A stretch of 64,000 nt of DNA from Liolophura sinensis. Taxonomy: Eukaryota > Mollusca > Polyplacophora > Chitonida > Chitonidae. A program made the position numbers and the translations under genes. Below are positions 34,401-62,768 of this stretch, piece after piece. The stretch spans positions 45,061,385 to 45,125,384 of the forward strand of contig NC_088295.1 in the NCBI RefSeq assembly GCF_032854445.1, read 5' to 3'. The notes beneath the pieces are model-generated. The model was not told the DNA's origin, ran no database searches, and saw only the letters and a list, made by a program, of their open reading frames with translations. Within the stretch, counting starts at the first letter, position 1. The number at the start of each line of letters is the position of its first letter.

Positions 34401-37400
34401 TATTTATTTGGTTGGTGTTTTACACCGTACTCATGAATATTTCACTTATGCGACAGCGGCCAGCATTGTGGTGGAAACTGGGCAGAGCCCATGGGAAACC
34501 ATGACCATCCGCAGGTTGCTGGCAGAAGTTCTCACGTACGGCCGGAGAGGAAGCCAGCATGACAATCTACTAAGATATCTCAACATTGAATTGCTAAAAA
34601 ACAAACATTCATCCATTCAAGCTCTTCATTATCACTTTCTTTGATTGCTCTTTGTGTGCATTTCACATCTTTTCATTTGGCATATTTCATATTGTTCATG
34701 TGTTTCTGTTTTAGCCAGTTTTGTTACACAATGTTGTGAAGGAACTGGAAGGCATTAAGTTTGTAACCGATCAACTTTCTCTAGGTGACACCAAATTTAT
34801 GGTAAGTAACACTTATTCCAGTAAAATGTTTAAACTTAAACTACATAAACTAAGAGGCTTCAGGTGATGAGTTTGAGATGTTGTAGAAAGATAAAGACAA
34901 ATGATAATATTTTGCGTATGAATTTCACCTGTCCACAAGGTATATACAGTGGGGATATGTACGTTGTGTATGTAATGTGAGACTATCATATTACCACTCG
35001 TATTGTTTGCTTAAAATGTATTTCATGTTTTATTACCAATGAAAGATATGCAAATAATTGGTCAGTCTTCTTCCCATACAGTGTGTTATCGATAAAAAAG
35101 ATGCAGGTGGGAGCATGTTTTTTAGTTTCATGAAGTGTCTGATTTTTAAAGCACACGATTATGTAGATCTTTTTCCATCATCTCAACTGTTTTAACTCAC
35201 GAGTGACCATGGAAATGGTCTTTTCACATCTTTGTGAATATTGAAATATTCTTTGGTTGCTTTTTAATCCTAATTTTGTAAAACATTATTGCTCTTTGTG
35301 TGCATTTCACATCTTTTCAAGACTCTGTTTGGGACCGTTACGTATCTTTATGTTTTTTCCAAACAGGGTGTATGTAGACTTCCCAAAGGTGATGGTGATG
35401 ATGAACCAAGCTACAGAAGAATCGACATCAGGTAATACAGTTGCATTGATATGTATTATTGTCTGTCAAATCAGTGTAAGCTTTGTCAATTGTGCAAGAG
35501 TTGTCTCCCCTTCTGTTATCTGCACAACTTATTAGTCCAACATGTTAAAGTTATGATAAGTTTTCGTCCACCCTAACCAGTAATAAACCCACCCACTGAT
35601 AAAAATGGCTGCCATCGTATAAGTGGAGTGTTTTTCAGTATAGTGTTTAACTTGAATTCAATAGATAAACAAATAACATAATTTATATAAAGGATAAAAG
35701 AAGCACCTTATGTAACTAAAAATATAACAAAATTCTGCCAGTGAATTGCAGATGGTCATGAATTTCCCCCAGTTTCTGTTTGTATCAGTGAAATATTCTT
35801 GAGTATAGTCTGAAATACGAAACAAATAAATAAATGTGTTAAACTTTAAGATATGCAAATTAAACAGAGGCCACTTAATAATGCTTGCAAATACTGTGTA
35901 GTATTTGTCCTACTTTCCTCAGACAGATTCCCCATGACGAATGTTCCCCAGCACAGGATCACTGTGCCTTGTTATAAATACTGTGTATTGACCTACCTTC
36001 CTCATACAAATTCCCCATGACGAATGTTCCCCAGCACAGTATCACTGTGCCTTGTTATAAATACTGTGTATTGACCTACCTTCCTCATACAAATTCCCCA
36101 TGACGAATGTTCCCCAGCACAGTATCACTGTGCCTTGTTATAAATACTGTGTATTGACCTACCTTCCTCATACAAATTCCCCATGACGAATGTTCCCCAG
36201 CACAGTATCACTGTGCCTTGTTATAAATACTGTGTATTGACTTACCTTCCTCATACAAATTCCCCATGACGAGTGTTCCCCAGCACAGTATCACTGTGCC
36301 TTGTTATAAATACTGTGTATTGACCTACCTTCCTCATACAAATTCCCCATGACGAATGTTCCCCAGCACAGTATCACTGTGCCTTGTTATAAATACTGTG
36401 TATTGACCTACCTTCCTCATACAAATTCCCCATGACGAATATTCCCCAGCACAGTATTACTGTGCCTTGTTATAAATACTGTGCATTGACCTGTCTTTCT
36501 CAGACAGGTTCCCCATGACGAATGTTCCCCAGCACAGTATCACTGTGCCTTGTTATAAATACTGTGCATTAACCTGTCTTTCTCAGACAGATTCCCCATG
36601 ATGAATGTTCCCCAGCACAGTATTACTGTGCCTTGTTATAAATACTGTGCATTGACCTGTCTTTCTCAGACAGGTTCCCCACAGCGAGTGTTCTCCAGCA
36701 CAGTATCACAGTACCTTGTTATAAATACTGTACATTAACCTGTCTTTCTCAGACAGATTCCCCATGACGAATGTTCCCCAGCACAGTATTACTGTGCCTT
36801 GTTATAAATACTGTGCATTGACCTGTCTTTCTCAGACAGGTTCCCCATGACGAATGTTCCCCAGCACAGTATCACTGTGCCTTGTTATAAATACTGTGCA
36901 TTAACCTGTCTTTCTCAGACAGATTCCCCATGACGAATGTTCCCCAGCACAGTATTACTGTGCCTTGTTATAAATACTGTGCATTGACCTGTCTTTCTCA
37001 GACAGGTTCCCCACAGCGAGTGTTCTCCAGCACAGTATCACAGTACCTTGTTATAAATACTGTGCATTAACCTGTCTCTCTCAGACAGATTCCCCATGAC
37101 GAATGTTCCCCAGCACAGTATCACAGTGCCTTGTTATAAATACTGTGCATTAACCTGTCTTTCTCAGACAGGTTCCCCATGATGAATGTTCCCCAGCACA
37201 GTATTACTGTGCCTTGTTATAAATACTGTGCATTAACCTGTCTTTCTCAGACAGGTTCCCCATGCCGATTGTTCCCCAGCACAGTATCACTGTGCCTTGT
37301 TATAAATACTGTGCATTAACCTGTCTTTCTCAGACAGATTCCCCATGACGAATGTTCCCCAGAACAGTATTACTGTGCCTTGTTATAAATACTGTGCATT

Positions 37401-40400
37401 GACCTGTCTTTCTCAGACAGGTTCCCCATGACGAATGTTCCCCAGAACAGTATTACTGTGCCTTGTTATAAATACTGTGCATTGACCTGTCTTTCTCAGA
37501 CAGGTTCCCCATGCCGATTGTTCCCCAGCACAGTATCACTGTGCCTTGTTATAAATACTGTGCATTAACCTGTCTTTCTCAGACAGATTTCCCAAGACGA
37601 GTGTTCCCTAGCACAGTATTACTGTGCCTTGTTATAAATACTGTGCATTTACCTGTCTTTCTCAGACAGGTTCCCCACAGCGAGTGTTCTCCAGCACAGT
37701 ATCACAGTACCTTGTTATAAATGCTGTGCATTGACCTGTCTTTCTCAGACAGATTCCCCAAGCTGAGTGTTCCCCAGCACAGTATTACTGTGCCTTGTTA
37801 TAAATACTGTGCATTGACCTGTCTTTCTCAGACAGGTTCCCCATGCCGATTGTTCCCCAGCACAGTATCACTGTGCCTTGTTATAAATACTGTGTATTGA
37901 CCTACCTTCCTCATACAAATTCCCCACCATAGTATCACTGTGCCTTGTTGTAAATACTGTGCATTGACCTGTCTTTCTCAGACAAATTGCCCACGCCGAG
38001 TGTTCCCCAGCACAGTATTACTGTGCCTTGTTATAAATGATGTATATTTACCTGTCTTTCTCAGTCAGGTTCCCCACTCCAAGTGTTCCCCAGAACAGTA
38101 TCACAGTGCCTTGTTATAAATGCTATGCATTGACCTGTCTTTCTCAGACAGATTCCCCATGCCGAGTGTTCCCCAGCACAGTATTACTGTGCCTTGTTAT
38201 AAATGCTGTGTATTGACCTGTCTTTCTCAGGCAGGTTCCCCACACCAAGTGTTCCCCAGCACAGTATTACTGTGCCTTGTTATAAATACTGTGTATTGAC
38301 CTACCTTCCTCATACAAATTCCCCACCATAGTATCACTGTGCCTTGTTGTAAATGCTGTGCATTGACCTGTCTTTCTCAGACAGATTCCCCACGGCGAGT
38401 GATTCACTGTGTATTGACCTACCTTCCTCATACAAATTCCCCACCATAGTATCACTGTGCCTTGTTGTAAATGCTGTGCATTGACCTGTCTTTCTCAGAC
38501 AGATTCCCCACGGCGAGTGTTCCCCAGCACAGTATTACTGTGCCTTGTTATAAATGCTATGCATTTACCTGTCTTTCTCAGACAAATTCCCCATGATGAG
38601 TGTTCCCCAGCACAGTATCACAGTGCCTTGTTATAAATACTGTGCATTAACCTGTCTTTCTCAGGCAGGTTCCCCACACCAAGTGTTCCCCAGCACAGTA
38701 TTACTGTGCCTTGTTATAAATACTGTGTATTGACCTACCTTCCTCATACAAATTCCCCACCATAGTATCATTGTGCCTTGTTGTAAATGCTGTGCATTGA
38801 CCTGTCTTTCTCAGACAGATTCCCCATGGCGAGTGTTCCCCAGCACAGTATTACTGTGCCTTGTTATAAATGCTGTGTATTTACCTGTCTTTCTCAGACA
38901 GATTCCTCATGCTGAGTGTTCCCCAGCACAGTATTACTGTGCCTTGTTATAAATGCTGTGCATTTACCTGTCTTTCTCAGACAAATTCCCCATGATGAGT
39001 GTTCCCCAGTGCAGTATTACTGTGCCTTGTTATAAATGCTATGCATTTACCTGTCTTTCTCAGACAAATTCCCCATGATGAGTGTTCCCCAGCACAGTAT
39101 CACAGTGCCTTGTTATAAATACTGTGCATTAACCTGTCTTTCTCAGGCAGGTTCCCCACACCAAGTGTTCCCCAGCACAGTATTACTGTGCCTGGTTATA
39201 AATGCTGTGCATTTACCTGTCTTTCTCAGACAAATTCCCCATGATGAGTGTTCCCCAGCACAGTATCACAGTGCCTTGTTATAAATACTGTGCATTAACC
39301 TGTCTTTCTCAGGCAGGTTCCCCACGCCAAGTGTTCCCCAGCACAGTATTACTGTGTCTTGTTATAAATGCTGTGCATTGACCTACCTTCCTCAGACGGG
39401 TTTCCCACGCCGGGTGTTCCCCAGCACAATATTACTGTGTCTTGTTATAAATGCTGTGCATTGACCTACCTTCCTCAGACGGGTTTCCCACGCCGGGTGT
39501 TCCCCAGCACAGTATTACTGTGTCTTGTTATAAATGCTGTGCATTGACCTACCTTCCTCAGACGGGTTTCCCATGCCGAGTGTTCCCCAGCACAGTATTA
39601 CTGTGCCTTGTTATAAATGTTATGCATTGACCTGTCTTTCTCAGACAGATTCCCCATGCCGAGTGTTCCCCAGCACAGTATTACTGTGTCTTGTTATAAA
39701 TACTGTGTATTGACCTGTCTTTCTCAGACAGATTCCCCATGCCGAGTGTTCCCCAGCACAGTATTACTGTGCCTTGTTATAAATACTGTGCATTGACCTG
39801 TCTTTCTCAGACAGATTCCCCATGCCGAGTGTTCCCCAGCACAGTATTACTGTGCCTTGTTATAAATACTGTGTATTGACCTGTCTTTCTCAGACAGATT
39901 CCCCATGCCGAGTGTTCCCCAGCACAGTTTTACTGTGCCTTGTTATAAATGCTGTGCATTTACCTGTCTTTCTCAGACAAATTCCCCATGATGAGTGTTC
40001 CCCAGCACAGTATCATAGTGCCTTGTTATAAATGCTGTGCATTGACCTACCTTCCTCAGACGGGTTTCCCATGCCGGGTGTTCCCCAGCACAGTATTACT
40101 GTGTCTTGTTATAAATGCTGTGCATTGACCTACCTTCCTCAGACGGGTTTCCCACGCCGAGTGTTCCCCAGCACAGTATTACTGTGCCTTGTTATAAATA
40201 CTGTGCATTGACCTGTCTTTCTCAGACAGATTCCCCATGACGAATGTTCCCCAGCACAGTATTACTGTGTCTTGTTATAAATGCTGTGCATTGACCTACC
40301 TTCCTCAGACGGGTTTCCCATGCCGGGTGTTCCCCAGCACAGTATTACTGTGTCTTGTTATAAATGCTGTGCATTGACCTACCTTCCTCAGACAGATTCC

Positions 40401-42441
40401 CCATGACGAATGTTCCCCAGCACAGTATTACTGTGCCTTGTTATAAATACTGTGTATTGACCTGTCTTTCTCAGACAGGTTCCGCACGCCAAGTGTTCCC
40501 CAGCACAGTATCACAGTGCCTTGTTATAAATGCTGTGCATTGACCTGTCTTTCTCAGACAAATTCCCCATGACGAATGTTCCCCAGCACAGTATTACTGT
40601 GTCTTGTTATAAATGCTGTGCATTGACCTACCTTCCTCAGACGGGTTTCCCATGCCGGGTGTTCCCCAGCACAGTATTACTGTGTCTTGTTATAAATGCT
40701 GTGCATTGACCTACCTTCCTCAGACAGATTCCCCATGACGAATGTTCCCCAGCACAGTATTACTGTGCCTTGTTATAAATACTGTGTATTGACCTGTCTT
40801 TCTCAGTCAGGTTCCGCACGCCAAGTGTTCCCCAGCACAGTATCACAGTGCCTTGTTATAAATGCTGTGCATTGACCTGTCTTTCTCAGACAAATTCCCC
40901 ATGACGAGTGTTCCCCAGCACAGTATCACAGTGCCTTGTTATAAATACTGTGCATTAACCTGTCTTTCTCAGACAAATTCCCCATGATGAGTGTTCCCCA
41001 GCACAGTATTACTGGGTCTTGTTATAAATACTGTGCATTAACCTGTCTTTCTCAGACAAATTCCCCATGATGAGTGTTCCCCAGCACAGTATTACTGGGT
41101 CTTGTTATAAATGCTGTGCATTGACCTGTCTTTCTCAGGCAGGTTCCCCACGCCAAGTGTTCCCCAGCACAGTATTACTGTGCCTTGTTATAAATGCTGT
41201 GCATTGACCTGTCTTTCTCAGACAAATTCCCCATGACGAGTGTTCCCCAGCACATTATCACTGTGCCTTGTTATAAATACGGTGTATTGACCTATGTTTT
41301 TCAGACTGATTCGCCACTACTAGTATTGTGGTGACGTTCTGTGTTATTGACTTGTCTTTCTCTGACTGATTCACCGCAACCAGTATTGCTGTGCCTTGTT
41401 ATAAACGTTCTATGTTATTGTCTTGTGTCTCTCAGACTGATCCCTCACGACCAGTATTACTGTGCCCTGCTGTACTTCACGGGCAGTGACCAGTTTAACA
41501 AGCACATGAGAGGCATTGCCCTAGAGCAGGGATTCACCCTCAATGAGTACAGTATTAGACCCATGGGCAGCACGGGTGAGTGAAGCTAGTACTGGTATCC
41601 TATTGGTCTGTAAATGTTTGAATGGAACCTTTCTTCCTTGAATATTTTGATTTTGAACAGCAAGACAAGTTTTCTAATTTGCTTAACTGAAAATGGTGGG
41701 AATAACACAACAACATCAACAACAGTTTTCTCATTAGGAAGATGTCAGGCTGGTCTGATACACAAGGCACCTTAGCTGAAAATGGTGAAATATTCTTTAG
41801 TGAAAACATATTACATTTAGTGCTTTTCATCATTGACCCAACTTGTTAATACAAGAATCATCCAAGTCCTGCAATCATGCTTGCATGCTAAATCGGAATG
41901 GTTTCAAACTTATTTGGCCTTTAGACTTTGCCATAGGACTGAAATTCTGAAATTAAACTTTCGCTGTAGCGGTTCATTTAAGTAGTTTATTAAGTAGATG
42001 TCCTTGCCAAAGTGGGCTGGTTTCCTTGTGGCCTTAACATTGTTCTTCCACTCATAAACCTGGGCCCAATTTAAAAAACTACACATAGCACTACGTACAC
42101 ATAACTACCATGGCAACGTAATACCTACAGTACTGGTTGCCATGGAAATTACATCCATGATGGCCATTGATGAAGGGTAATTATGCAATCTTTAATGTGT
42201 ATACATAAATGTGCCGTGAAGATATTGTATATACTCTGAATGAGTGCATAATAAATGTTGAAATATTAAATCTTCTCTCTAATTGTAAATGTGAATACAG
42301 TATGAATCTCTGAACTGAATCTCTCTTGGACTTTGTTGTTGTACAGGTATTCCTGGTGAACCTTTACCTGTATCCAGTGAGGAGGACATATTTGATTACG
42401 TAGGAATGAAGTTCAAAAAACCAAAAGACAGAAATTTATGA
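22420..42441 (+). CDS. POLB: DNA polymerase beta (complete, 13 coding exons)
   Basis: Nuclear base-excision-repair polymerase that removes the 5'-deoxyribose phosphate and fills one-nucleotide gaps. Exons: 22420-22483, 23812-23936, 28922-28996, 29729-29787, 30732-30781, 31414-31465, 31973-32027, 32369-32441, 34007-34077, 34715-34801, 35367-35431, 41436-41575 and 42347-42441. The total is 1011 nt, 336 residues (335 in human). The 8-kDa lyase domain keeps the Schiff-base lysine (Lys73 in KKIDEF) and the HKY and VYRKAA segments; the first helix-hairpin-helix is GIGDKIG and the second GVGPAAAAKF. Catalytic metal ligands are Asp191 and Asp193 (GDIDIL) and Asp257 (RRIDIR). The nucleotide-pocket block [13 protein letters not shown] is intact. 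All introns are GT-AG. Intron 11 is filled by an 83-bp minisatellite made of copies of the exon 12 acceptor region. Confidence 0.97.
22484..23811. other. POLB intron 1
   Basis: Contains a tRNA-like SINE head at 22860-22935 and a hairpin at about 23406-23445 (CCACACTGACA and its complement). Otherwise nothing is recognised. Confidence 0.65.
22860..22935 (+). mobile_element. tRNA-derived SINE head
   Basis: Box A-like GGTGTAGTGGTATAAGC and box B-like GAGTTCAAATCC, spaced as in a tRNA. The cloverleaf pairing is poor, so it is a retroposon remnant rather than a tRNA gene. Confidence 0.5.
23812..23936 (+). CDS. POLB: POLB coding exon 2
   Basis: Residues 22-63, starting [20 protein letters not shown] and ending KSGEEAKKL; lyase domain. 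The acceptor is TTTGTTTCAG and the donor is GGTACGTC. Confidence 0.96.
24735..24950 (+). mobile_element. SINE-A, long copy with tRNA-like box B
   Basis: Opens with CACCAATGCGGTCGCTGTGA, box B-like GAGTTCAAATCC, the GGCTTCCTCTCCGGCCGTAC block, the conserved body and an (AAAT)n tail. The flanks ATTTTGTATC and ATTTTGCATC may be a one-mismatch target duplication. Confidence 0.87.
24971..24998. repeat. Short perfect hairpin
   Basis: GCATGACAGT and its exact complement ACTGTCATGC separated by 8 bases, just after a SINE tail. Significance unknown. Confidence 0.6.
25200..25371 (+). mobile_element. SINE-A, 5'-truncated, with exact 12-bp target duplication
   Basis: AATATGGAACAC occurs at 25200-25211 and 25360-25371, around a SINE 3' body (CACCATAATGCTGGCCGCCG) and (AAAT)n tail. 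High identity to the consensus suggests a recent insertion. Confidence 0.9.
26160..26560 (+). repeat. Diverged dispersed repeat with simple-sequence head
   Basis: A CGTCCGTCCTTCCATCCATC head is followed by TTTCAAGGTC segments at 26373 and 26523. A stretch of similar style (GTCTGTCTGTATG head, then GTTATGCAAGGATTTTGATG) lies at 32490-32700. The element class is not identified. Confidence 0.4.
27306..27501 (+). mobile_element. MITE-like element, family M1
   Basis: Left end CCCTAATTCCTCAGTC, right end GGTTGAAGAATTACAGTA. The ends are inverted repeats, with a possible TA target duplication. The core has AGTTAGATTGGCCATTTTCA and GGGCTTCACAAAAGTATAA. About 196 bp. Confidence 0.72.
27700..28310. 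repeat. 31-bp minisatellite
   Basis: About 19 copies of a 31-bp unit containing GTTAACCATGG, CTGAAAAA and CTGGAACAC. The left copies are the most diverged (TGAATAACTGGAACATG). It lies in POLB intron 2 and is not derived from a neighbouring exon that I can see. Confidence 0.93.
28314..28485 (+). mobile_element. SINE-A inserted in the edge of the 31-bp array
   Basis: Body with CCATAATGCTGGCTGCCGTT and an (AAAT)n tail. TAGCCATGG occurs on both sides (28315-28323 and after the tail), so it landed inside a satellite unit. Confidence 0.82.
28574..28745 (-). mobile_element. MITE-like element, family M1 (reverse orientation)
   Basis: Begins CTGTAATTCTTCAACCTC, the complement of the M1 right end, followed by TTTGCATG and an M1-like interior on the minus strand. 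The far end is degraded. Confidence 0.6.
28922..28996 (+). CDS. POLB: POLB coding exon 3
   Basis: Residues 64-88, starting [20 protein letters not shown] and ending EKLEK. It contains the first helix-hairpin-helix and Lys73, the dRP-lyase nucleophile. The residue before the hairpin is Asp where vertebrates have Pro. The donor GGTTATTA is weaker than usual. Confidence 0.95.
28997..29728. other. POLB intron 3 with degraded tRNA-type SINE
   Basis: A tRNA-like head at about 29283-29350 (box B-like GGGTTCAAACC) and a SINE-A-like 3' part near 29535-29620 (CCCATGAAACTGTCATAAGT) suggest one old SINE across most of the intron. Confidence 0.55.
29729..29787 (+). CDS. POLB: POLB coding exon 4
   Basis: Encodes [19 protein letters not shown] plus two bases of Gly108. 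The acceptor is TTTTGCAG and the donor is GGTATGTT. Confidence 0.94.
29788..30731. other. POLB intron 4
   Basis: Mostly occupied by a MITE-like element (29969-30363). A diverged SINE-A-like fragment lies near 30495-30620 (ACTGTCATGGTATAAGTAAA), and a GT/G-rich run at 30133-30152. Confidence 0.6.
29969..30363. mobile_element. MITE-like element with about 30-bp terminal inverted repeats
   Basis: Left end GGGAGTTGATTCCACAAAGC; the reverse complement of the right end reads GGGGCTGATTTCACAAAGCC. Both continue into a TTCTGACT block. The interior is non-coding and has internally repeated AAATTTTGA/GATTTTGTAG-type stretches. It lies in POLB intron 4. Confidence 0.7.
30732..30781 (+). CDS. POLB: POLB coding exon 5
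   Basis: Encodes [17 protein letters not shown] plus the first base of Asp125; it completes the second helix-hairpin-helix (GVGPAAA). The acceptor follows a long T tract (TTTTTTCTCAG). Confidence 0.94.
30782..31413. other. POLB intron 5 with tRNA-type SINE
   Basis: At about 31170-31260 a tRNA-like head has box A TGGCTGAGTGG and box B GGGTTCAAATCC, and is followed by a SINE-like body to about 31390. Nothing else is seen. Confidence 0.6.
31414..31465 (+). CDS. POLB: POLB coding exon 6
   Basis: Encodes [17 protein letters not shown] plus two bases of Lys142. The acceptor is TGTCGTTTCAG and the donor is GTAAGTG. Confidence 0.95.
31466..31972. other. POLB intron 6
   Basis: Contains an AAATAA-rich simple repeat at 31640-31690. 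Nothing else is seen. Confidence 0.6.
31973..32027 (+). CDS. POLB: POLB coding exon 7
   Basis: Encodes [19 protein letters not shown] (residues 142-160), a highly conserved POLB block. The acceptor is TTTTATTTTCAG and the donor is GGTAAATC. Confidence 0.96.
32028..32368. other. POLB intron 7
   Basis: Contains a weak reverse tRNA-like fragment near 32110-32195. No other feature is recognised. Confidence 0.5.
32369..32441 (+). CDS. POLB: POLB coding exon 8
   Basis: Starts [20 protein letters not shown] and ends SFRR plus one base of Gly185. The GSFRRG motif belongs to the nucleotidyltransferase fold. The donor is GGTGAGAG. Confidence 0.96.
32442..34006. other. POLB intron 8
   Basis: Holds a (GTCT)-rich stretch at 32495-32580 that opens a diverged dispersed repeat to about 32700, and a short tandem array at 33020-33225. 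No gene is recognised. Confidence 0.6.
33020..33225. repeat. Three-copy tandem repeat of about 60-75 bp
   Basis: Three units each carry GTAAAGTGA, then a GGAAAGT or GAAAAGT block, then ATACAAAC(A/G)TG. They start near 33022, 33089 and 33167. Confidence 0.75.
34007..34077 (+). CDS. POLB: POLB coding exon 9 (two catalytic aspartates)
   Basis: Residues 185-208, starting [20 protein letters not shown] and ending KKKM. Asp191 and Asp193 correspond to human Asp190 and Asp192. The acceptor is ATTACTCCCAG and the donor is GGTGAGAC. Confidence 0.97.
34387..34580 (-). mobile_element. SINE-A in POLB intron 9
   Basis: TTTATTTATTTATTTGGTTG tail side, body to GCCGGAGAGGAAGCCAGCAT. CACTAAGAT on the left and TACTAAGAT on the right may be the target duplication. 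Confidence 0.85.
34644..34675 (+). repeat. 32-bp direct repeat, copy 1 (before exon 10)
   Basis: Identical over 32 bp to 35288-35319 (core CTCTTTGTGTGCATTTCACA). It ends 39 bases before exon 10 and is pyrimidine-rich. Confidence 0.9.
34715..34801 (+). CDS. POLB: POLB coding exon 10
   Basis: Residues 209-237, starting [20 protein letters not shown] and ending LSLGDTKFM; phase 0 at both ends. The acceptor is TCTGTTTTAG and the donor is GGTAAGTA. Confidence 0.96.
34802..35366. other. POLB intron 10
   Basis: No mobile element is recognised. It carries the second copy of the 32-bp direct repeat at 35288-35319. Confidence 0.65.
35288..35319 (+). repeat. 32-bp direct repeat, copy 2 (before exon 11)
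   Basis: An exact copy of 34644-34675. It ends 47 bases before exon 11. Confidence 0.9.
35367..35431 (+). CDS. POLB: POLB coding exon 11 (third catalytic aspartate)
   Basis: Starts [20 protein letters not shown] and ends with Ile258 and two bases of Arg259. Asp257 in RRIDIR is the third metal ligand. The [10 protein letters not shown] loop is variable in the family. The donor is GGTAATAC. Confidence 0.96.
35432..35884. other. First part of POLB intron 11 with two degraded SINE-A fragments
   Basis: SINE-A-like 3' bodies at about 35580-35680 (ATGGCTGCCATCGTATAAGT) and 35738-35836 (GTGAAATATTCTTGAGTATA, then an AAATAAATAAAT tail). The minisatellite begins right after. Confidence 0.65.
35885..41435 (+). 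repeat. 83-bp minisatellite made of POLB exon 12 acceptor copies
   Basis: About 66 head-to-tail copies; the early spacing is exactly 83 bp. A typical unit has CCTGTCTTTCTCAG, then ACAGATTCCCCATGAC, then GAATGTTCCCCAGCA, then CAGTATTACTGTGCC, then TTGTTATAAATACTGTGCAT. It aligns with the true exon 12 boundary, which reads CTTGTGTCTCTCAG, ACTGATCCCTCACGAC, CAGTATTACTGTGCC, apart from the 15-nt insert. Translated in the exon frame, a unit gives [18 protein letters not shown] and then TAA, against [17 protein letters not shown] in the gene. The first seven or so units have CTCATA in place of CTCAG; most later units keep the acceptor AG. The last two units before the exon lack the 15-nt insert and are 60-71 bp, like an ancestral form. 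Some units are shortened (near 37915, 38320, 38400, 38750). Confidence 0.96.
41436..41575 (+). CDS. POLB: POLB coding exon 12
   Basis: Residues 259-305, starting [20 protein letters not shown], then [20 protein letters not shown] and IRPMGST. It holds the Tyr-Phe-Thr-Gly-Ser hinge and the Asn and Arg of the nucleotide pocket. The acceptor TTGTGTCTCTCAG is effectively the last unit of the upstream minisatellite. The donor is GGTGAGTG. Confidence 0.96.
41576..42346. other. POLB intron 12
   Basis: No repeat or gene recognised. Confidence 0.6.
42347..42441 (+). CDS. POLB: POLB coding exon 13 with stop
   Basis: Starts [20 protein letters not shown] and ends [11 protein letters not shown], then TGA. 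GEPLPV and DIFDY are the conserved POLB C terminus. The acceptor is TTGTTGTACAG. Confidence 0.96.
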
Positions 42442-49036: not shown

Positions 49037-49110
49037 TCAAATATCCATTTCAAACTGGGGGTCATCCCCTGCAACTGGTGCTTTAGCCGCCGCTGCTGCT
49101 GCTGCTGCTG
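49037..49110 (-). CDS. EIF4EBP: 4E-BP coding exon 3 with polyalanine and TOS motif
   Basis: With the G carried over from exon 2 it encodes nine Ala, then [15 protein letters not shown] and TGA. The alanines come from (CAG)6 CGGCGG placed directly at the acceptor, which reads TTTTGTAG then CAGCAG. FEMDI is the TOR signalling motif. Confidence 0.95.
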
Positions 49111-52100
49111 CTACAAAATAAAAAAAGTATTTTATTTTTTTTTTTATCCGAGTGAATTTATGAAGCAATAGAGTACCTTTTCTGTTGCCATGGTGACTCA
49201 GGTCCAAGCCCGCTTGGCAACTGTTCTCTAGTAATACATGAGGACTTCTGGCCGGAAGTTGTTCTGGCAAAAAGCAGGAATGAATAATAGATTGCATAAG
49301 ACTGAAAGCTTTCCCATAGTGCCATTAATCTTCATCAAACTGTTCGCATAAGAAAGAGGAAATTTCAGTGCAGTTCATGTACACTCTTAATTTGATTTTG
49401 GAGTAAAAACTACATTGGTTGGTTTGGCCAGTTTCAAAAAAAGTATAATTTTATTATTCAACACAGAGTAAAGCCTTCAGAATATGCTTGCATAACCACC
49501 ATGCAAATATGTGCATAGGCTGAAGAATTACAAAATTTCACTGCCTTGTCATGTGATCTTCTTAATTTATGATCATCAAAAACAACTCAGTTGCAAAAAA
49601 AAAAAAGGTAAATCTCCATGTAGTTCCACATGCACCTGACAAAATAATATCTAGGTTTACAAGGAAGATTTATATGTGATCAGAAATGATCTTGGCATGT
49701 ATATTATGACCTTGAAGAGACAAATGGTAACTAGACGATCAAGAGGTGAAAGCAGAGACTGCTAAATGTCAGGAAATGGCCAAATAATATGCAAAATTTA
49801 GAAAAGCGTACATAATTTGCCAGGACATTCATAAGAGACAAACCAAAATCCTGAACTCCAAATGAATCTCGCAAGCTCTCATCTCTGTTCACAACATGGC
49901 AGTTACCTGGTGTCTTGTTATCTCCGCCTTTGGGCTGCTCACTCCCGTTCTCCTTGGGTGTGCTCATTTCACCAGGGCTGGTCACTCCGGGAATCACAGC
50001 CATGTTGGCCGGCGGGCTTCTGGTCAGTGGTGAGTTTCTACACCGCAGGAGGAAGGCTCTATCATAGATCAGCCTTGTGCCTGAGGACAGATAATGTAGT
50101 TGATAGTAGTACTGCACAAGTGGAAGGCTCTATCATAGATCAGCCTTGTGTCTGAGGACAGATAATGTAGCTGATAGTAGTACTGCACAAGTGGAAGGCT
50201 CTATCATAGATCAGCCTTGTGCCTGAGGACAGATAATGTGACTGATAGTAGTACTGCACAAGTGGAAGGCTCTAGCCTTGTGCCTGAGGACAGATAATGT
50301 AACTGATAGTAGCACTGCACAGGAGGCGGCTCTATCATAGATCAGCCTTGTGGCTGAGGATAGATAATGTAACTGAAAGTAGTACAGCACAGGTCGAAGG
50401 CTCTGTCATAGATCAGCATTGTGCCTGAGGACAGATAATGTAACTGATAGCAGCACTGCACAGGAGGAGGCTCTATTATAGATCAGCCTTGTGCCTGAGG
50501 ATAGATAATGTAACTGAAAGTAGCACTGCACAGAAGGAAGGCTCTGTCATAGATCAGCCTTGTGCCTGAGGACAGATAATGTAACTGATAGTAGTATTGC
50601 ACAGGTGGAAGGCTCTATCATAGATCAGCCTTGTGCCTGAGGATAGATAGGACACAGACCCCCATTACAACTTCCGTTTTTCAGTAGGGACGATTGTAGT
50701 TCTGTGTATTTTAGGGTGTAAAGTCTTTTTTTGCTGCCAGCCTGCCGTTTTTGGTGTACAGGTGCATGCTTGGTATCAAAATGATGGAAATTGTCTAAGC
50801 TTTGGGCAGGTATGAGTTTTAATGGTGAAAGTTTGAAATTCTGGGCGAGAGGACACAAGGAGACAGGTGGTGATGAGGCCGTGAGTGACGTCCCCTTGGC
50901 GTTGCTAGGCACCCCTGCCAGCTGCCGGCATGGATAGGTCCAGATTTTGACGGTCAACCTATGTCAAGATTTTTACAGCTTCTTTCTCACAGGCTGGGCC
51001 AGGTATGCACCAAAGCTTATTGGCCTCGGAATGTTTGGGACGGAGCTACAGCGCTGAACGTTTACATTGTCGCTTATGGAAAACTAATGGGGGTCTGTGG
51101 CCTGATCTGTCCACTTGTGCCAAAACATGTAATACGTCACTGTGTGCTCAGATCTCGCAGCAGCCTGATAATATTTGGTGGGTACATCTGCGATGTGGTT
51201 TGCATTGACATGGAACTTGATTGAGCAGTTTTAAAGCTTTTTAATTCTATATTTTCCCCACATATCCATTTTGTCTAAAAATCGGCTAAAACGCTCTGTG
51301 GTCAAGGGTAGTACAGGAGTATAAACAGACTGGAACAAACACAGACAACGTTTCATTGTTCCTGGTTTTTAAAATGTCTCTTTTGGGGCTGACATTTGAT
51401 AAATAATGCAAAATTTGAGTGCTGCGAGTGAAATTGGAGTATGTGGCTGATAGATAGGGTGGTGTGATTAAGGATGGTCAATAAGGCCTTGCATCACATA
51501 TAAGGGCCCAGCCTCACACAGGTGGATAAAAACACATCAGCAGATTAATTTACTTGGCTAGAGTAGTAGAGAGGGCCAGTGTGCATTTAATTTACAAACC
51601 AAGTCAGGTTCCTCCCATGTGTGCCACCACACACTAGGTAAATGTGCTTCAAATCATCCTGCAGGTCACAAAACATTAAAAACAGGCATCTCTGCTGCAA
51701 CACTGTCTGCTGTTTTGGGCATAGACTTGAAGTGGACAAGGTAAATTTTCCTCTTTAAACTTAAAAATAAACCACTGTAGGCATGTAGTTTTCATTGCAT
51801 GTGTATATTCATTCCTCTGACAAGTTACATGTGCACTCACACAGTATGTGTGGCGTTGGAACAAAAATGATCAATTTCAAGTTTCTAGCATACATGTAAG
51901 TGTGATCTGTTGGAATATTGCCCTTGTGAAAATGAGTCTCTGCCCCACCAGGTGTCTGTTTCTCCACCAGAACATAGTACGCTGTTCCTGCGACATCTCA
52001 AGGAGTTTTTGTTTTAGTATCTGGCCCAGTGTGGCATCCACCTCCCTGGGCAACTGGGATTTTTTTTATGTTTCCAATGTCCTCACACACAAGTTAGAAA

Positions 52101-55100
52101 TTAGACAGCTACATATGGCTTTCACATCCTAGTTTAATACCTACTGAGCTTTCGTCTTGGTTTCCCTCTTTAGATCTTGTCTCCCAAACATGGCGTCAGT
52201 GAACTTTGCCTGGTTTATGCATATACTGAACTGGGATCTACCTAGGTGAGTGGGGTCTGCTAGCCGTTCAGCTTCCTCAAAGGCCTAACCATTCGGATGC
52301 AGTATTCCACTCCCTTGGCCGACCTAGAATCCCCGTCATTGGTCCGGTACTAGACCATGACACATACCCCTCCAGAACCCCCCCCCCCCAACCGGGGAAA
52401 CGTCACAGGTTTCTCATATATGTACGGACAGTTTGAATGTCCATTCCTCATGCCCACCCAGGAACACCCAGTGTAGAACCTGATTACGGATGTAATTTCT
52501 CACTGATTATTTGAGGATTTCTGTGTTGTTACAGGTTAAAAAGTATAGCTTTTCTTCTCTTCTTGGGTCCCTTCAACATGTCTTGGGAGGGTTGCCTTGC
52601 TGACTGTCTGAATGACCAATGTGCATGTACTGTGTGGCTTTATTTTTGTAAGTGGCAAATTCATATTTCTCCCCTCTACTTATCTCTTGTAGAGTGAGTG
52701 AGTGAGTGCTTGGGGTTTAACGTCGTACTCAACAATTTTTCAGTCATATGACGACGAAGGAATCATTAGGGTGCATGTACGTGTAATGTGGCTTCTTGTT
52801 GCAGGACGGATTTCCACCGCTCTTTTATTTAGTGCTGCTTCACTGAGACGACTTACCGAAGGCAAGTAAGCAGCCCCGCCCGAGCCATTATACTGATACG
52901 GGTCAACCAGTCGTTGCACTATCCCCCTTCATGCTGAATGCCAAGCGAGGAAGTTACAACAGTCTTTTCTTTAGCCCTATCCATGGAAATTGTGCCTATG
53001 AGCATTTCTATATCAATTTGGATGCATATGTTTACTTTGATGGTGATCAAAATGTACTTTTCTGGAATTCTGAAACTCCGCTTTGCTACCCACCTGTATC
53101 ACTTTAAGTCAAATTTTGCACAAAGTTGCTAAAAGGTATGTCCTATATTTTGTAAGTGAATTGTCAGATAAATTACCTGTCTTTTGATATATATTTTGAC
53201 ACTTTTGGCTTTTAAGTATTTTCTTAACACTGCTGTAAACAAGAAAATCTACTTGAAAATCCATAATTTTCTATATGTTTGTCAATGGTAAATGTAAAAT
53301 ACTTTGTCATTGGAATTTTTTCATTTTTCTTGCAGATATACATACCAGCTTTCCAAAACATTTGACCTGGTTGAGATATTTTGAACGGTATGTGCACTAC
53401 AGAGCTTTGAACTTCGTGCTTGAGGACGGACAAACAGACACATTTCCAAGATAGGGGTACCCCAAGTTAAATTCCTCCTACTCAAAAGTTTTTGCATGTA
53501 TCAAGCTGTAACTTTATGTGTGAGGTTTAGAGGTAGTAAGCATTATGTGGTGCAAAAATTATTGATTTTGAAAAAAGTTGGCTGGTGTGATAGGACACAG
53601 ACCCCCATTACAACTTCCGTTTTTCAGTAGGGACGATTGTAGTTCTGTGTATTTTAGGGTGTAAAGTCTTTTTTTGCTGCCAGCCTGCCGTTTTTGGTGT
53701 ACAGGTGCATGCTTGGTATCAAAATGATGGAAATTGTCTAAGCTTTGGGCAGGTATGAGTTTTAATGGTGAAAGTTTGAAATTCTGGGCGAGAGGACACA
53801 AGGAGACAGGTGGTGATGAGGCTGCGAGTGACGTCCCCTTGGCGTTGCTAGGCACCCCTGTCAGCTGCCGGCATGGATAGGTCCAGATTTTGACGGTCAA
53901 CCTATGTCAAGATTTTTACAGCTTCTTTCTCACAGGCTGGGCCAGGTATGCACCAAAGCTTATTGGCCTCGGAATGTTTGGAACTGAGCTACAGCGCTAA
54001 ACATTAACATTGTCGCTTATGGAAAACTAATGGGGGTCTGTGGCCAGATAATGTAACTGAAAGTAGTACAGCACAGAAGGAAGGCTCTGTCATAGATCAG
54101 CCTTGTGCCCGAGGACAGATAATGTAACTGATAGTAGTACTGCACAGGTGGAAGGCTCTACCATAGCACAGCCTTGTGCCTGAGGACACATTTAATGTAG
54201 CTGATAGTAGAGCAGCACAGGAGAAAGCTTCTAACGTACCGCATAGTGGAACAGTGGATGAGAAAGGCTCTATCACAGATCAGCTTTGTGTATGTGGACA
54301 GTTACTTTAACTGATAGTTGTATGACACAGGAAGAGGGCTCTACCATAGATCAGTTTTGTGCCTGATGACAGATAATATAACTGATAGAAGTTCAGCACT
54401 GGAGAATGGCACTTTCATGGATCAGCTTTGTGCACATGGACAGATGATGTACATGTAACTGATAGCAGTACGCAGGATAAAGGCTCTACCATCGATCAGC
54501 ATTGTGCATGAGGACAGATAATGTAACTAATAGTAGAACAGCACAGAGAAAGGTTCTAATGTAACTGATAGTAGTTCAGCACTGGAGAAAGGCTCTTTCA
54601 TAGATCAGCTATGTCCATGTGGACAGACAATATAGCTGATAATAGTACTGCACAGGAGACCGGCTCTTTCATAGATCAGCATTGGGCATATGGACAGATA
54701 ATGTAACTGTTAGTCATACAACGCAGGAAAAAGGCTCTACCATAGATCAGTTTTAACAGTATAGCCCAGGACCATACAACAGCCTTGTGCCCGAGGACAG
54801 ATAATGTAACTGATAGTAGTACAACGCAGGAGGAAGGCTCTACCATAGATCGACCTTTTGCCTGGGGACAGATAATGTAACTGACAGCAGTACAGCGCAG
54901 GAAAAAGGTTCTACCATAGATCAGCTTTGCATGGGGATGATGTAACTTACAGCTGCACAGAGCAAGAGAATGGTCCTACCATAGATCATCTTTGTTCCTG
55001 TTACCGGCCCCGCTAGCACAGTTCGGGAGTGGTAAATCCAGGGTCAATCCTGGGTTGAGTCACTCCTAAGACTTTAAAAGAGGAAGTTGCAGCTTCCTCG

Positions 55101-58100
55101 CTTGGCGACAAGCATGTAGGGGATGGTGCAATGACTGGTTAACCCGTATCAGTACAATGGCTTGAGCGGGCAGCTTACTTACCTTTGGTAAGGCATCTCA
55201 GTGAAGCAGCACTAGATAAAAGAGCAGTGGAAATCCGACAAGGAGATACATTACATGCATTCTAAGGATTCCTTCGTTGTCATGACTGAAAAATTGTTAA
55301 GTACGACGTTAAACCCCAAGCCTTCACTCACTCTTTGTGCCTGGGGACAATGTTTCTGATAGTAGGAAAGCTCCATCATAAATATTTCCATTGTGAAAAT
55401 CATTCTAAGTATACTTGTACATGAAATTACAATTCCCTCAGAGTCAGTTCTAGTGATTCTAAAGCCAACAAGTAGTACTGTAAGTCAACAATCGCCAAAA
55501 ACAAAGTTAAAAATGGTTTCACAGTCAATGACCACTGGAAAATACTTGAATACTTGAAAAGGACACCTGGAGAAATGATTTTCATGACATTTCATACTAC
55601 AGTGCTAAAGAATGTACATCTTTACTAATGCTAATTTTGTGGATTTCCATACTGCCCTTTTAACTAGAAAACTTTAAAAACATGAAAACATGGATAGGTA
55701 ATTGTATAATTTGATGTTTATCCACCTGTCCCTGATTGAATATTTAAAATGGAGACGAATACAGGTAAGTAGGCTTTTGAGCGAGCATGAACGGCTTACA
55801 CGTGTCTACAATCTCTTTCAGGTTAACACAGTACACACACGTTTTAACAACACACCAATTCACACCTATTACCGGTACACATACATCCTGTTCAAATTGC
55901 TTACAAGGGCAGAAAAAGTATGTCCTGTTTGTTAATGTTATAAAGATTAATATCTTGAAGTAAACAAACATAAATTTGTTTACACACACAGCATTATACC
56001 TTCTTCCAAGACTGAAAAAAAAAACACTTGTTTTAAAAGAGGATAAGTAATGACCACAAAATTTCATACTTTTCCGCTTTAATTTAGGTTAGCTGAAACC
56101 ACTTTAAAGAAAATTGGCTGTGTCTGGTTTACAAAAGACAAAACAATTCAAAATAAATCTGCAGGCTTACAGCCTTTGCAGATAAAAAACTTCACATTAA
56201 TAAATGTTTTCTTTTCTTTCTCCACGATGCATCTGAATGGCATAGATCATCACAATTTCTTACATAATTTATTTTCCATCTGCTGGAAACGCCGGCAGGT
56301 CGATATATTGTGCTGATATTAAATATACCATAAATTTTATCCATTTTTTCCTGATTCTGAGAGACCTATTGATTTTAGAAAGGTGTTTTGTTGTTTGCTT
56401 GGAATATGGGATGGTATTCTACTGAAAAATTGGAAGTTTCAGCACCAAAAATAACATTCTGTTACATTTATTTGCCGCCTAAAAATGACCTTTTGAGGAC
56501 GAAATTTTAGGTCATTTAGGGTATAACATGTTCATCCAAGCAGACACTGTTACATGTTAAAACTGGCTGACACAAATATACATTCACATGTAAATAACAC
56601 AGTGTCACGCTATCATACCTGAGTGACTGGGTTTGACAAACCAAGCCACAAAGGTATGTTATGTTCAGGCATTAATGAAATTCACGAATATGAATGAAGC
56701 AATCAATTTTCAAACCAACTTAATTAACAGACATGTAATTATAATCTAATATACACACGTGTGTAATGCAGAACATATCCAATACAAAAAAATTGCAAAT
56801 CATGAAAGAATTATACGCTGATTACAGCTGTTTATTTATCTCATTAATTCCTATATCCTAATTCTTCTAATTATTGGGACAGATATTAGTGCTGAAAGCA
56901 GAATATTACTTGTCTATCCCAGCTTTTTGGAACAGTAAAGATATGAATATGTTGTTCATCAGATGGTCGCCCTATGTGAGAAAAAAGAAACTAAATATTC
57001 CTGCTACAATTACATGTATTTTGGCTAAAGAGATCAGACGAGGTGGTCCAAAAATTAGAAGAATAAGGTACTGTACATACTAGGCTTTCAATGAACTTAA
57101 AACCAATATAGAAAATACAGAGCAAATAAGTAAAACTTTAACCTTATAAAATTAGAGTATGCCCCCAAAGATGCTGTATACATGTTTGTTTGAAATACTG
57201 ATCACACATGATAACAGCTAACAGAATATATATCCATGTGAATCCATGTGTATCAACTCATAATGAGTATTTTTATGACACACAAGACTCAGTTGCCAAG
57301 TCACTTTGATGTGGACTAATTTCAATCCAGTGGGTTTCCCCGGTTTCCTCCTGCCACAATGCTGTCCGCCGTTGTATAAGTGAAATATTCTTGAGTACGC
57401 GAAGAACACCTATCAAATAAATAACAAAATAAATTTCAATAAACATCCTTACACGGTTTGAGAAATTCAAGATTATACTGCCTGGCTCTTTTATGCGATG
57501 TGTCACTGGGAATATGATTCCATTCCACTGAATTCAATTCAATTCAATTATCACTACAAATGTATGCAAGACACATATTCTGTGAGCTACATTGTGACGT
57601 CATTAAGCAGGAATTCCCATCTGAGTGCATTTTCAGAAGTGTACTGAACTGAACCCAGGGTGTCCAGATCAGTCTGCACTAATGAGCACTGGAAGGCGGT
57701 GTGTCAGTGGAAAATCTATTTAGATTTAATGCGAATCAATTACAGTTGATGCAATTAAATAAAACCATATTTGGTGTGTCAACGGCATAATGGGTGTCAC
57801 ATCCGCACGGGCGTGTCACAACAGTAGCAAATTGTGGCACGGACAGATTTGTCTTAATATAATATACAACAACATAGTACATGTGTTAATATTATAAACT
57901 GTAGCTTCTGTAAACTTTCAAACTTGAAACGGCTTTGCTGAATTGGCCATAGTTTCTTCATAACTACTGTAGCCACGAGTATGTGCCACAAAAATATATA
58001 CATGTACTAGTAACCCTGGATTGAAATTCTACAGTTCATCTACTACTGAAACTTGTACTGCACCCTCTCCGGAAGGAATCTTTCTACACCTTACACGTTT

Positions 58101-61200: not shown

Positions 61201-61542
61201 GTGACCAAAACAACATCATCGCCAAACCTCGTGACGCCATGTTGTTGCTAGCATCAGCGACGAAAAGGATCCCAACTGTTGTATTACAGCAAACATGCCA
61301 GGGATTCATGTCACACATAAACACACACAACAATGCAACATCTCAAACGCTCTACACATATTTAAACTTCGGTTTGCATATGTTTTTAAACCCGTCCTAC
61401 CTCCTGGAGTTGTAGAAAATATGGTGCCACCTGGAGTACTGCTGTAGTCATGTGGAAGTTGGCTCGGGTCATTGATAAGGATTCTCCGCGTTGGAATTGA
61501 TCGACTTTTTCCCGATTTTATGGGAGATCCAGCCGCCGACAT
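49037..61542 (-). CDS. EIF4EBP: eIF4E-binding protein 4E-BP (complete, 3 coding exons)
   Basis: Cytoplasmic repressor of cap-dependent translation. Unphosphorylated 4E-BP binds eIF4E and blocks eIF4G; TOR phosphorylation releases it. Exons are 61542-61401, 50080-49907 and 49110-49037, in frame, 129 residues (human 4E-BP1 has 118). Visible elements: RSIP at 14-17 in place of the mammalian RAIP motif; STPGG and TTPGG phosphorylation sites (Thr36, Thr45); the eIF4E-binding motif YDRAFLL (53-59); NSP at 63-65; IPGVTSP; and the TOS motif FEMDI as the last five residues. A nine-alanine run opens exon 3. Intron 1 is 11.3 kb and is partly made of a 71-bp minisatellite copying the exon 2 acceptor. An in-frame ATG at 61620 would add 26 residues, but the conserved length favours the ATG at 61542. 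Gene numbering (1, 2 or 3) does not apply to an invertebrate. Confidence 0.96.
49111..49906. other. 4E-BP intron 2
   Basis: Contains an M1 element at about 49326-49531. Otherwise unremarkable. Confidence 0.6.
49326..49531 (+). mobile_element. MITE-like element, family M1
   Basis: The core ACTACATTGGTTGGTTTGGC and the right end GGCTGAAGAATTACA match the other copies. The left end CTTCATCAAACTG is degraded. Confidence 0.6.
49907..50080 (-). CDS. EIF4EBP: 4E-BP coding exon 2 (eIF4E-binding motif)
   Basis: Starts [20 protein letters not shown], then [20 protein letters not shown] and [18 protein letters not shown]. The acceptor is TTATCTGTCCTCAG and the donor is GGTAACTG. The first 36 or so bases of the exon, with the acceptor, are the template of the 71-bp array that abuts it. 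Confidence 0.96.
50081..50649 (-). repeat. 71-bp minisatellite of 4E-BP exon 2 acceptor copies, proximal part
   Basis: About nine copies directly upstream, in gene sense, of exon 2; the spacing between the first units is 71 bp. On the minus strand each unit reads TTATCTGTCCTCAG, then GCACAAGGCTGATCTATGAT, then AGAGCCTTCC, then about 25 bases of intron-like sequence (TGTGCAGTACTACTATCA). The exon-derived part encodes [10 protein letters not shown](LL), the eIF4E-binding helix. Almost all copies keep the acceptor AG. Interrupted at 50650 by a 3.4-kb insertion. Confidence 0.95.
50650..51102. repeat. 453-bp terminal repeat, left copy
   Basis: Starts GGACACAGACCCCCATTAC and ends ACTAATGGGGGTCTGTGGCC; the two ends are inverted repeats of 18 bp with one mismatch. 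A minus-strand ORF of about 100 codons (starting [13 protein letters not shown]) is open in both copies, with no known family signature. Confidence 0.88.
52378..52389. repeat. Poly-C run
   Basis: About a dozen C residues inside the 3.4-kb insertion. Confidence 0.7.
52686..52956 (-). mobile_element. SINE-B, head-truncated
   Basis: Reverse-orientation copy of 55011-55333. It has GTTTAACGTCGTACTCAACA, TCATATGACGACGAAGGAAT, GTGCTGCTTCACTGAGACG and GCCAAGCGAGGAAGTT. The GAGTGAGTGAGTG tail is on the left and the tRNA-like head is missing. Confidence 0.8.
53593..54045. repeat. 453-bp terminal repeat, right copy
   Basis: Same length and orientation as 50650-51102, for example GAGGCTGCGAGTGACGTCCC here against GAGGCCGTGAGTGACGTCCC. 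It ends at TGTGGCC, immediately before AGATAATGTAACTG of the resumed satellite. Confidence 0.88.
54046..55010 (-). repeat. 71-bp minisatellite of 4E-BP exon 2 acceptor copies, distal part
   Basis: About 12-13 further copies of the exon 2 acceptor unit on the far side of the insertion, more diverged than the exon-proximal ones (spellings such as TATGTGGACAG, CACATGGACAG and CCTGGGGACAG replace CCTGAGGACAG). The divergence gradient suggests that the exon-proximal end was homogenised or amplified most recently. Confidence 0.92.
55001..55343 (+). mobile_element. SINE-B, near full length, inside the 4E-BP satellite, with target duplication
   Basis: Body 55011-55333. The tRNA-like head has GCTAGCACAGTTCGGGAG and box B-like GGTCAATCC, followed by the conserved body and CCTTCACTCACTC. 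The flanks TTTGTTCCTG (55001-55010) and TTTGTGCCTG (55334-55343) differ at one base. The last satellite remnant continues after it. Confidence 0.82.
55334..55375 (-). repeat. Terminal remnant of the 71-bp array
   Basis: TGTGCCTGGGGACAATG and CTGATAGTAGGAAAGCTC match the satellite unit and mark its far end. Confidence 0.75.
57325..57430 (+). mobile_element. SINE-A, 5'-truncated
   Basis: GTGGGTTTCCCCGGTTTCC, then ACAATGCTGTCCGCCGTTGT and an AAATAAATAACAAAATAAA tail. Confidence 0.8.
58170..58201. repeat. (TA)n microsatellite
   Basis: Short AT repeat preceded by a CTCTCTCTCCCCCCC tract. Confidence 0.85.
58826..58945. repeat. Five-copy repeat of about 26-31 bp
   Basis: Repeated (A/G)(A/G)CACACTGAGAGGGAAA cores with short spacers. 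Confidence 0.8.
60658..60745. repeat. Three-copy 29-bp repeat
   Basis: Three copies of TACACAGTCCTACTAGTCAT with ATACCTGCA or ATACCTACA spacers. Confidence 0.85.
61401..61542 (-). CDS. EIF4EBP: 4E-BP coding exon 1
   Basis: Starts [20 protein letters not shown], then [20 protein letters not shown] and IFSTTPG. It holds the RSIP element and both TPGG phosphorylation sites. The donor is GGTAGGAC and it leaves in phase 1. Confidence 0.95.
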
Positions 61543-62693: not shown

Positions 62694-62696
62694 GTG

Positions 62697-62768
62697 TTCC
62701 CATGCCGGGAATCGAACCCGGGCCGCCTGGGTGAAAGCCAGGAATCCTAACCACTAGACCACATGGGA
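62697..62768 (-). tRNA. trnE-UUC: tRNA-Glu (anticodon UUC)
   Basis: 72 nt with an intact cloverleaf. The acceptor stem pairs TCCCATG with CATGGGA, with A as discriminator. Box A is TGGTCTAGTGG and box B GGTTCGATTCC. The anticodon arm CCTGG-CTTTCAC-CCAGG gives TTC, decoding GAA as Glu. No intron. Followed by a T7 terminator. Confidence 0.97.

Follow-up and report, generated by a model that had tools for sequence, protein, structure and literature searches.

The stretch of DNA analysed here, hereafter the window, comprises 64,000 nucleotides of contig NC_088295.1 from the chiton Liolophura sinensis. It includes two convergent genes of relevance, POLB on the plus strand and 4E-BP on the minus strand. 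Intron 1 of 4E-BP harbors a tandem array whose repeat unit of ~71 bp spans an exon-intron boundary of its host gene. The exons of this gene are located at 61401-61542 (the coding part of exon 1, with its donor GT at 61400-61399), 49907-50080 (exon 2) and 49037-49110 (exon 3 to the stop codon, encoding the C-terminal residues QFEMDI). An NCBI protein model of the same assembly (P0001) is identical across exons 1-2, and this annotation chooses the exon-proximal acceptor for exon 2. The authentic 3' splice site region, CTGTCCTCAG (50081-50112, minus strand), doubles as the intronic half of the repeat copy nearest the exon. The bases directly before the start of exon 2 at 50080 read ...ATTATCTGTCCTCAG on the minus strand.

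Each repeat unit joins ~29-32 intron nucleotides ending in CTGTCCTCAG to the first 30-42 nucleotides of exon 2, which are the source of the repeat. The acceptor is followed by GCACAAGGCTGATCTATGATAGAGCCTTCC, that is, the first 30 nucleotides of the exon. An nhmmer search within the window, with the 71-bp unit as query, yields 27 rows. Of these, 22 are units lying between 50081 and 54997 and one is the exon copy (50080-50038). A further row is a weak terminal remnant on the minus strand (55338-55402, E 0.79), and the remaining three, located elsewhere in the window, are at chance level (E 2.7-8.2). The array abuts the authentic exon 2, which serves as its last copy. It is real and exon-derived, and its anatomy is correctly described in the initial annotation as an acceptor-derived array of ~71-bp units, in about 22 copies, next to exon 2. 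A DNA search of the whole genome (632 contigs, 609.5 Mb) with 50040-50300, by a method that skips very common words, gives eight matches, all at the 4E-BP locus.

The units fall into two blocks, both on the minus strand. The exon-proximal block (50081-50649) holds eight units, one with a 10-nt deletion and the eighth with its upstream half replaced by a mobile insertion; the AG is intact in all eight. Over 32 intron nucleotides, seven of these eight decoys match the real copy at 84-97% identity, and the intron-part identities of the array include units whose upstream part has been replaced. The distal block (54046-54997) contains 14 diverged or rearranged units, of which four keep the AG. Units become less identical to the exon copy the farther they lie from it (Spearman -0.71, p=0.0006, for 19 of the 22 units, with three rearranged units left out), and the p value is only indicative because the units share ancestry.

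The repeats are not continuous, being split by a 3.4-kb composite mobile insertion (50650-54045) and carrying an element that resembles a short interspersed nuclear element (SINE) near the far end (55067-55333). The larger insertion is bounded by 454-bp terminal direct repeats that are 98% identical (445 matches, 8 mismatches and 2 gap columns when aligned). Each of these carries 18-19-nt terminal inverted repeats, and 2.5 kb separates the two. The insertion is flanked by a 5-bp AGATA target duplication, and its inner flanks are also alike (TGATA/TGATC). The SINE-like element has an inverted copy within the 3.4-kb insertion (52696-52979), ~82% identical over 265 bp.

Twenty 4E-BP sequences were aligned, namely the query and 19 proteins from databases, including one from the same species; Y53, R55 and L58 are invariant among them and F57 is nearly so. 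Because the peptide encoded at the exon start is conserved, the exon gave rise to the repeat, as the initial annotation had held. The first 30 exon nucleotides are common to most units. Past this point, the exon-proximal units have in common a derived segment (such as CACTTGTGCAGTACTA) not present in the exon. The unit closest to the exon there is the old distal unit at 54861, which by eye matches ~42 nucleotides. This pattern points to a founding unit that probably comprised about 42 exon and 29 intron nucleotides, and to a proximal block that probably became homogenised afterwards, with no new copying from the exon past nucleotide 30. A simple conveyor, in which the exon repeatedly buds off copies, is contradicted by the derived segment in the proximal units, by the closeness of 54861 to the exon and by the reverse polarity of the POLB array described below.

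The predicted effect of decoy splicing was examined by joining exon 1 in silico to each of the 22 copies and translating the result. All 22 joins give products of 49-94 amino acids, and none reaches the normal C-terminus QFEMDI. The 12 decoys that bear an AG are predicted to yield products of 65-94 amino acids, all truncated. We scored these for YxxxxL(hydrophobic), which we take to be the eIF4E-binding motif. The protein had been proposed to change just after this motif. By our own reading of the translations, that is so for three of the 12 AG-bearing decoys (50565, 54861 and 54997), which keep it; the other nine break or lose it, typically reading YDRAFHL. Every decoy stop lies at least 162 nucleotides before the exon 2/exon 3 junction. 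Stops this far upstream of the last junction are expected to trigger nonsense-mediated decay, and this fate is therefore predicted for decoy-spliced transcripts. Mismatches in the exon-derived portion of the units number 18/211, 31/210 and 21/211 at codon positions 1, 2 and 3, respectively, and thus form no coding pattern.

The POLB array (35913-41466, plus strand) consists of ~65 acceptor-derived units of 83 bp, and the real exon starts at 41436. As the initial annotation recognized, it has the same architecture as the 4E-BP array and is unrelated to it in sequence. The NCBI POLB protein model (P0121) likewise chooses the exon-proximal acceptor. The proposal that exon-proximal units are the most uniform is borne out for 4E-BP and fails for POLB, where the uniform units lie far from the exon and divergence is greatest next to it. 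As the two arrays are most uniform at opposite ends, they give no support for a polarity rule. At the far end of the POLB array, CAT replaces CAG in six of seven units. An AG is present in 56 of 67 POLB rows; five of the 11 rows without one are partial matches, starting at model position 22 (three), 19 (one) or 28 (the exon row), for which the projected dinucleotide is meaningless.

Boundary-spanning arrays are not confined to these two genes. Arrays of this architecture are also present at one GST exon and five myosin exons, at donors as well as acceptors. Within the window, copies span the boundary at two of 16 exons (4E-BP and POLB), and array copies cross the boundary in none of the 14 others checked. 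POLB exons 2 and 5 have an AT-rich 38-nt intron end in common, and a 21-nt intron match occurs at POLB exon 10; neither feature is an array. The window also contains large minisatellites at 13131-14531 and 27697-28292, with 29/58-bp and 31-bp units. A myosin-head search of the same genome identified 81 exon places, of which 33 were not fetched and 48 were examined in two samples by exon self-comparison, which would miss very short or very diverged units. The first sample comprised 33 exons from six loci, and the second comprised 15 exons with 250 nt of flank.

Five of the 33 exons in the first sample carry boundary-spanning arrays, and their peptides are confirmed as myosin head. One array is at an acceptor (L034, ANPLLEAFGNAKT) and four are at donors (L030, two in L031, and L033); the donor unit lists were built from patterns requiring the site, such that lost sites cannot show. 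The second sample has no clear case and one uncertain case (L046, donor side, with a unit of about 20 bp) that was not counted. Also not counted were arrays near, and not clearly across, a boundary (L040, L041, L045 and L050) and short self-matches that lie away from the boundary by coordinates (L042, L043, L049, L032 and L035). The myosin total is five of 48 exons, or seven of 64 with the window. Outside this denominator is a GST exon found by scanning array edges in the 200 kb beside the window. Its acceptor array (L027, 2781-3180) has a unit of about 57 bp and two decoys. Four of the eight boundary arrays are at acceptors and four at donors, and the units from the different genes are mutually unrelated in sequence. 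Unit length is not a multiple of 3 in six of the eight, 4E-BP included, and reading frame is not kept.

Several observations were made beside these features. Three similar exon stretches in L030 (696-807, 1161-1291 and 1764-1894; 78-81% identical), two of which are matched by the myosin-head family search, were not counted as an array and are likely to be duplicated alternative myosin exons. A second stretch with units similar to those of the GST exon array lies about 5.4 kb beyond it (L027, 8201-8500). Exon 3 of 4E-BP opens with six consecutive CAG triplets following TTTTGTAG, which makes a series of tandem acceptors. Six Ala are present in the NCBI model, implying a site 9 nt inside the first AG; that first AG would give nine Ala. 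A tRNA-Glu gene (anticodon TTC) is located upstream of 4E-BP at 62696-62768 on the minus strand.

Tandem repeats spanning exon-intron boundaries are called mirages. They were named in amphioxus Adh3 and are also found in globin genes, including BflGb6 and BflGb9, and have been considered possibly general in cephalochordates (PMC3087553). Another mirage occurs in amphioxus PGBD5, in a report that also cites troponin C (PMC3902484). As far as the consulted portions of these sources describe them, amphioxus mirages resemble the chiton arrays in several respects. The unit combines an intron end with an exon start (or an exon end with a donor) beside a real exon, AG or GT is intact in many but not all copies, the copies of an array evolve in concert, and both boundary types are affected. 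The chiton case differs in that its host is a mollusc, in that the 4E-BP array is interrupted by mobile insertions, and in its 22 units (4E-BP) and about 65 units (POLB), compared with the six and three units of two BflGb6 haplotypes given in the same portions (PMC3087553). By the structural features tested, the 4E-BP array belongs to the mirage class; regular splicing at its exon-proximal site is suggested by the annotation. The open-access literature that we searched yielded no mirage in a mollusc or other non-amphioxus host. Relative to those searches, the mollusc host, the number of units and the apparent frequency of such arrays are new.

Two other systems invite comparison. Intron gain by tandem genomic duplication (the AGGT model) also multiplies splice-site copies, as outlined in the part of the source consulted (PMC3443670). 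In 4E-BP, however, an existing intron has been lengthened and no new one created, and the junctions of the eight proximal units and the real copy read CAG|GCAC, CAG|ACAC or CAG|CCAC rather than AG|GT, which excludes this model. Recursive splice sites are rejected on the same junctions, where AG is followed by GC, AC or CC and never by GT. Ordinary intronic minisatellites share with the 4E-BP array its period, slippage-like growth and a higher-order 141-bp register. Unlike theirs, the 4E-BP unit includes host-gene coding sequence together with a splice junction.

It is very probable that the 4E-BP array is a mirage-type minisatellite, produced by neutral tandem duplication and slippage and tolerated via exon definition. 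Its founding event would have been a ~71-bp tandem duplication across the intron 1/exon 2 junction that was then fixed. Such a duplication would be tolerated, since the coding exon stays intact with the last copy still attached to it. Subsequent growth by slippage or unequal exchange would represent ordinary minisatellite turnover. The spliceosome would take the copy nearest the real exon, which gives the shortest exon paired with the exon 2 donor. More generally, the real site would be the last acceptor or the first donor, and no special device would be needed. Upstream copies would persist as silent decoys and decay after being displaced or separated by the 3.4-kb insertion. If a decoy is occasionally used, the resulting transcripts would be truncated and subject to nonsense-mediated decay; such use probably amounts to slightly harmful noise. 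In the L034 array, a nine-base sequence, TGAGAAACA, is present at each border. It is a possible founding microhomology, matching what a first duplication by this route would leave.

Some points weigh against this interpretation. Correct splicing of 4E-BP and the choice of site by exon definition are both inferred, the former from annotation (NCBI protein models). The reversed gradient of uniformity in POLB means that one simple growth rule does not fit both arrays, and the second myosin sample lacks a clear case. In addition, the exon-derived part of the 4E-BP units diverges less from the real copy (70/632 mismatches) than the intron-derived part (125/675). We ascribe this difference, as a conjecture, to units whose upstream half was replaced and to changes private to the real copy at about -20/-19.

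Other explanations for the array would assign it a different origin or a function. The initial annotation had itself raised the prospect that the start of exon 2 is an exonised satellite rather than the source of the repeats. The sequence identity itself would fit this origin and nothing further speaks for it. 4E-BPs from other phyla retain the Y-R-(F)L core, no second locus was matched in the genome search, and the old distal unit resembles the exon farther in than recent units do. Protein conservation rules this origin out, and we give it practically no credence. An assembly artefact of collapsed or expanded repeats is very improbable. Tandem arrays are error-prone and the reported PacBio HiFi depth is 14x (PMC11068029, in the portion consulted), but the units are separable by private differences, the 3.4-kb insertion with its target duplication anchors the array, and the average HiFi read of 8,347 bp given in the same portion exceeds either half-array (PMC11068029). 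Copy number of the array may differ between individuals. The repeated acceptors might instead form a functional decoy or poison splice array that titrates or diverts splicing, thereby tuning 4E-BP dose or yielding a truncated repressor. Retention of AG in every proximal decoy, the closeness of seven of them to the real copy and the truncation predicted whenever a decoy is used are compatible with such a role, as is the 50565 product, which would retain YDRAFLL and lose QFEMDI. Against it stand the same architecture at unrelated genes and at donors, the lack of codon-position constraint in the copied exon part and the loss of AG from 10 of 14 distal decoys; recent copies are expected to look intact even without selection. 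A regulatory decoy role is unsupported and, in our estimation, improbable, and the array as a feature of 4E-BP is most likely neutral.

A further explanation concerns only the founding sites and is compatible with a mirage-type origin. Splice junctions may be favored for tandem duplication by a targeting process, such as transcription- or splicing-coupled breakage or microhomology at the splice consensus, as opposed to random hits followed by tolerance. The fraction of sequence in tandem arrays is ~15% for both the window and the six myosin loci, 12% for the 15 fragments and 5.5% for the 200-kb flank. Under a null model of our own, in which the founder unit of each array is placed at random, the myosin samples, chosen blind to arrays, have five boundary-spanning arrays compared with 1.54 expected (P 0.021). 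With the window included there are seven compared with 1.96 (P 0.004), and acceptors as well as donors are affected. However, if the six loci are assumed to contain twice the detected exons, the expected numbers rise to 2.37 (P 0.092) and 2.78 (P 0.024), respectively. The window was chosen for its arrays, so its two cases are not independent. The calculation that includes the window used hand-set boundary numbers (29, 66 and 30), and in it the POLB array was entered as two and the 4E-BP array as three, which raised the expected number. Moreover, the excess is driven by the first myosin sample. The excess over random founder placement is weak and marginal, and is suggestive only. Targeting is possible and rather doubtful. 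The same tentative standing applies to the wider proposition that splice junctions are preferred founding sites for minisatellites in this chiton, perhaps widely outside cephalochordates, with about one exon in ten affected.

The presence of mirages in a mollusc, at five of 48 myosin exons and in 4E-BP, POLB and GST, suggests a genomic process of wider reach and is relevant to the lengthening of introns and the origin of decoy exons. The arrays provide a natural assay of splice-site choice, in which near-identical sites differ mainly in their distance from the partner site. Published RNA sequencing data for this species, under the name L. japonica, cover digestive gland, foot, gill, gonad and heart according to the portion of the source consulted (PMC11068029). 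These five tissues could show directly how splicing copes with the arrays. A chiton genome apparently rich in boundary-spanning arrays is of interest well beyond 4E-BP. If splice junctions are indeed preferred founding sites, this genome would be a large natural experiment that sets one correct site against dozens of near-identical decoys, of which 4E-BP, with 22 decoys, and POLB, with about 65, would be extreme cases.

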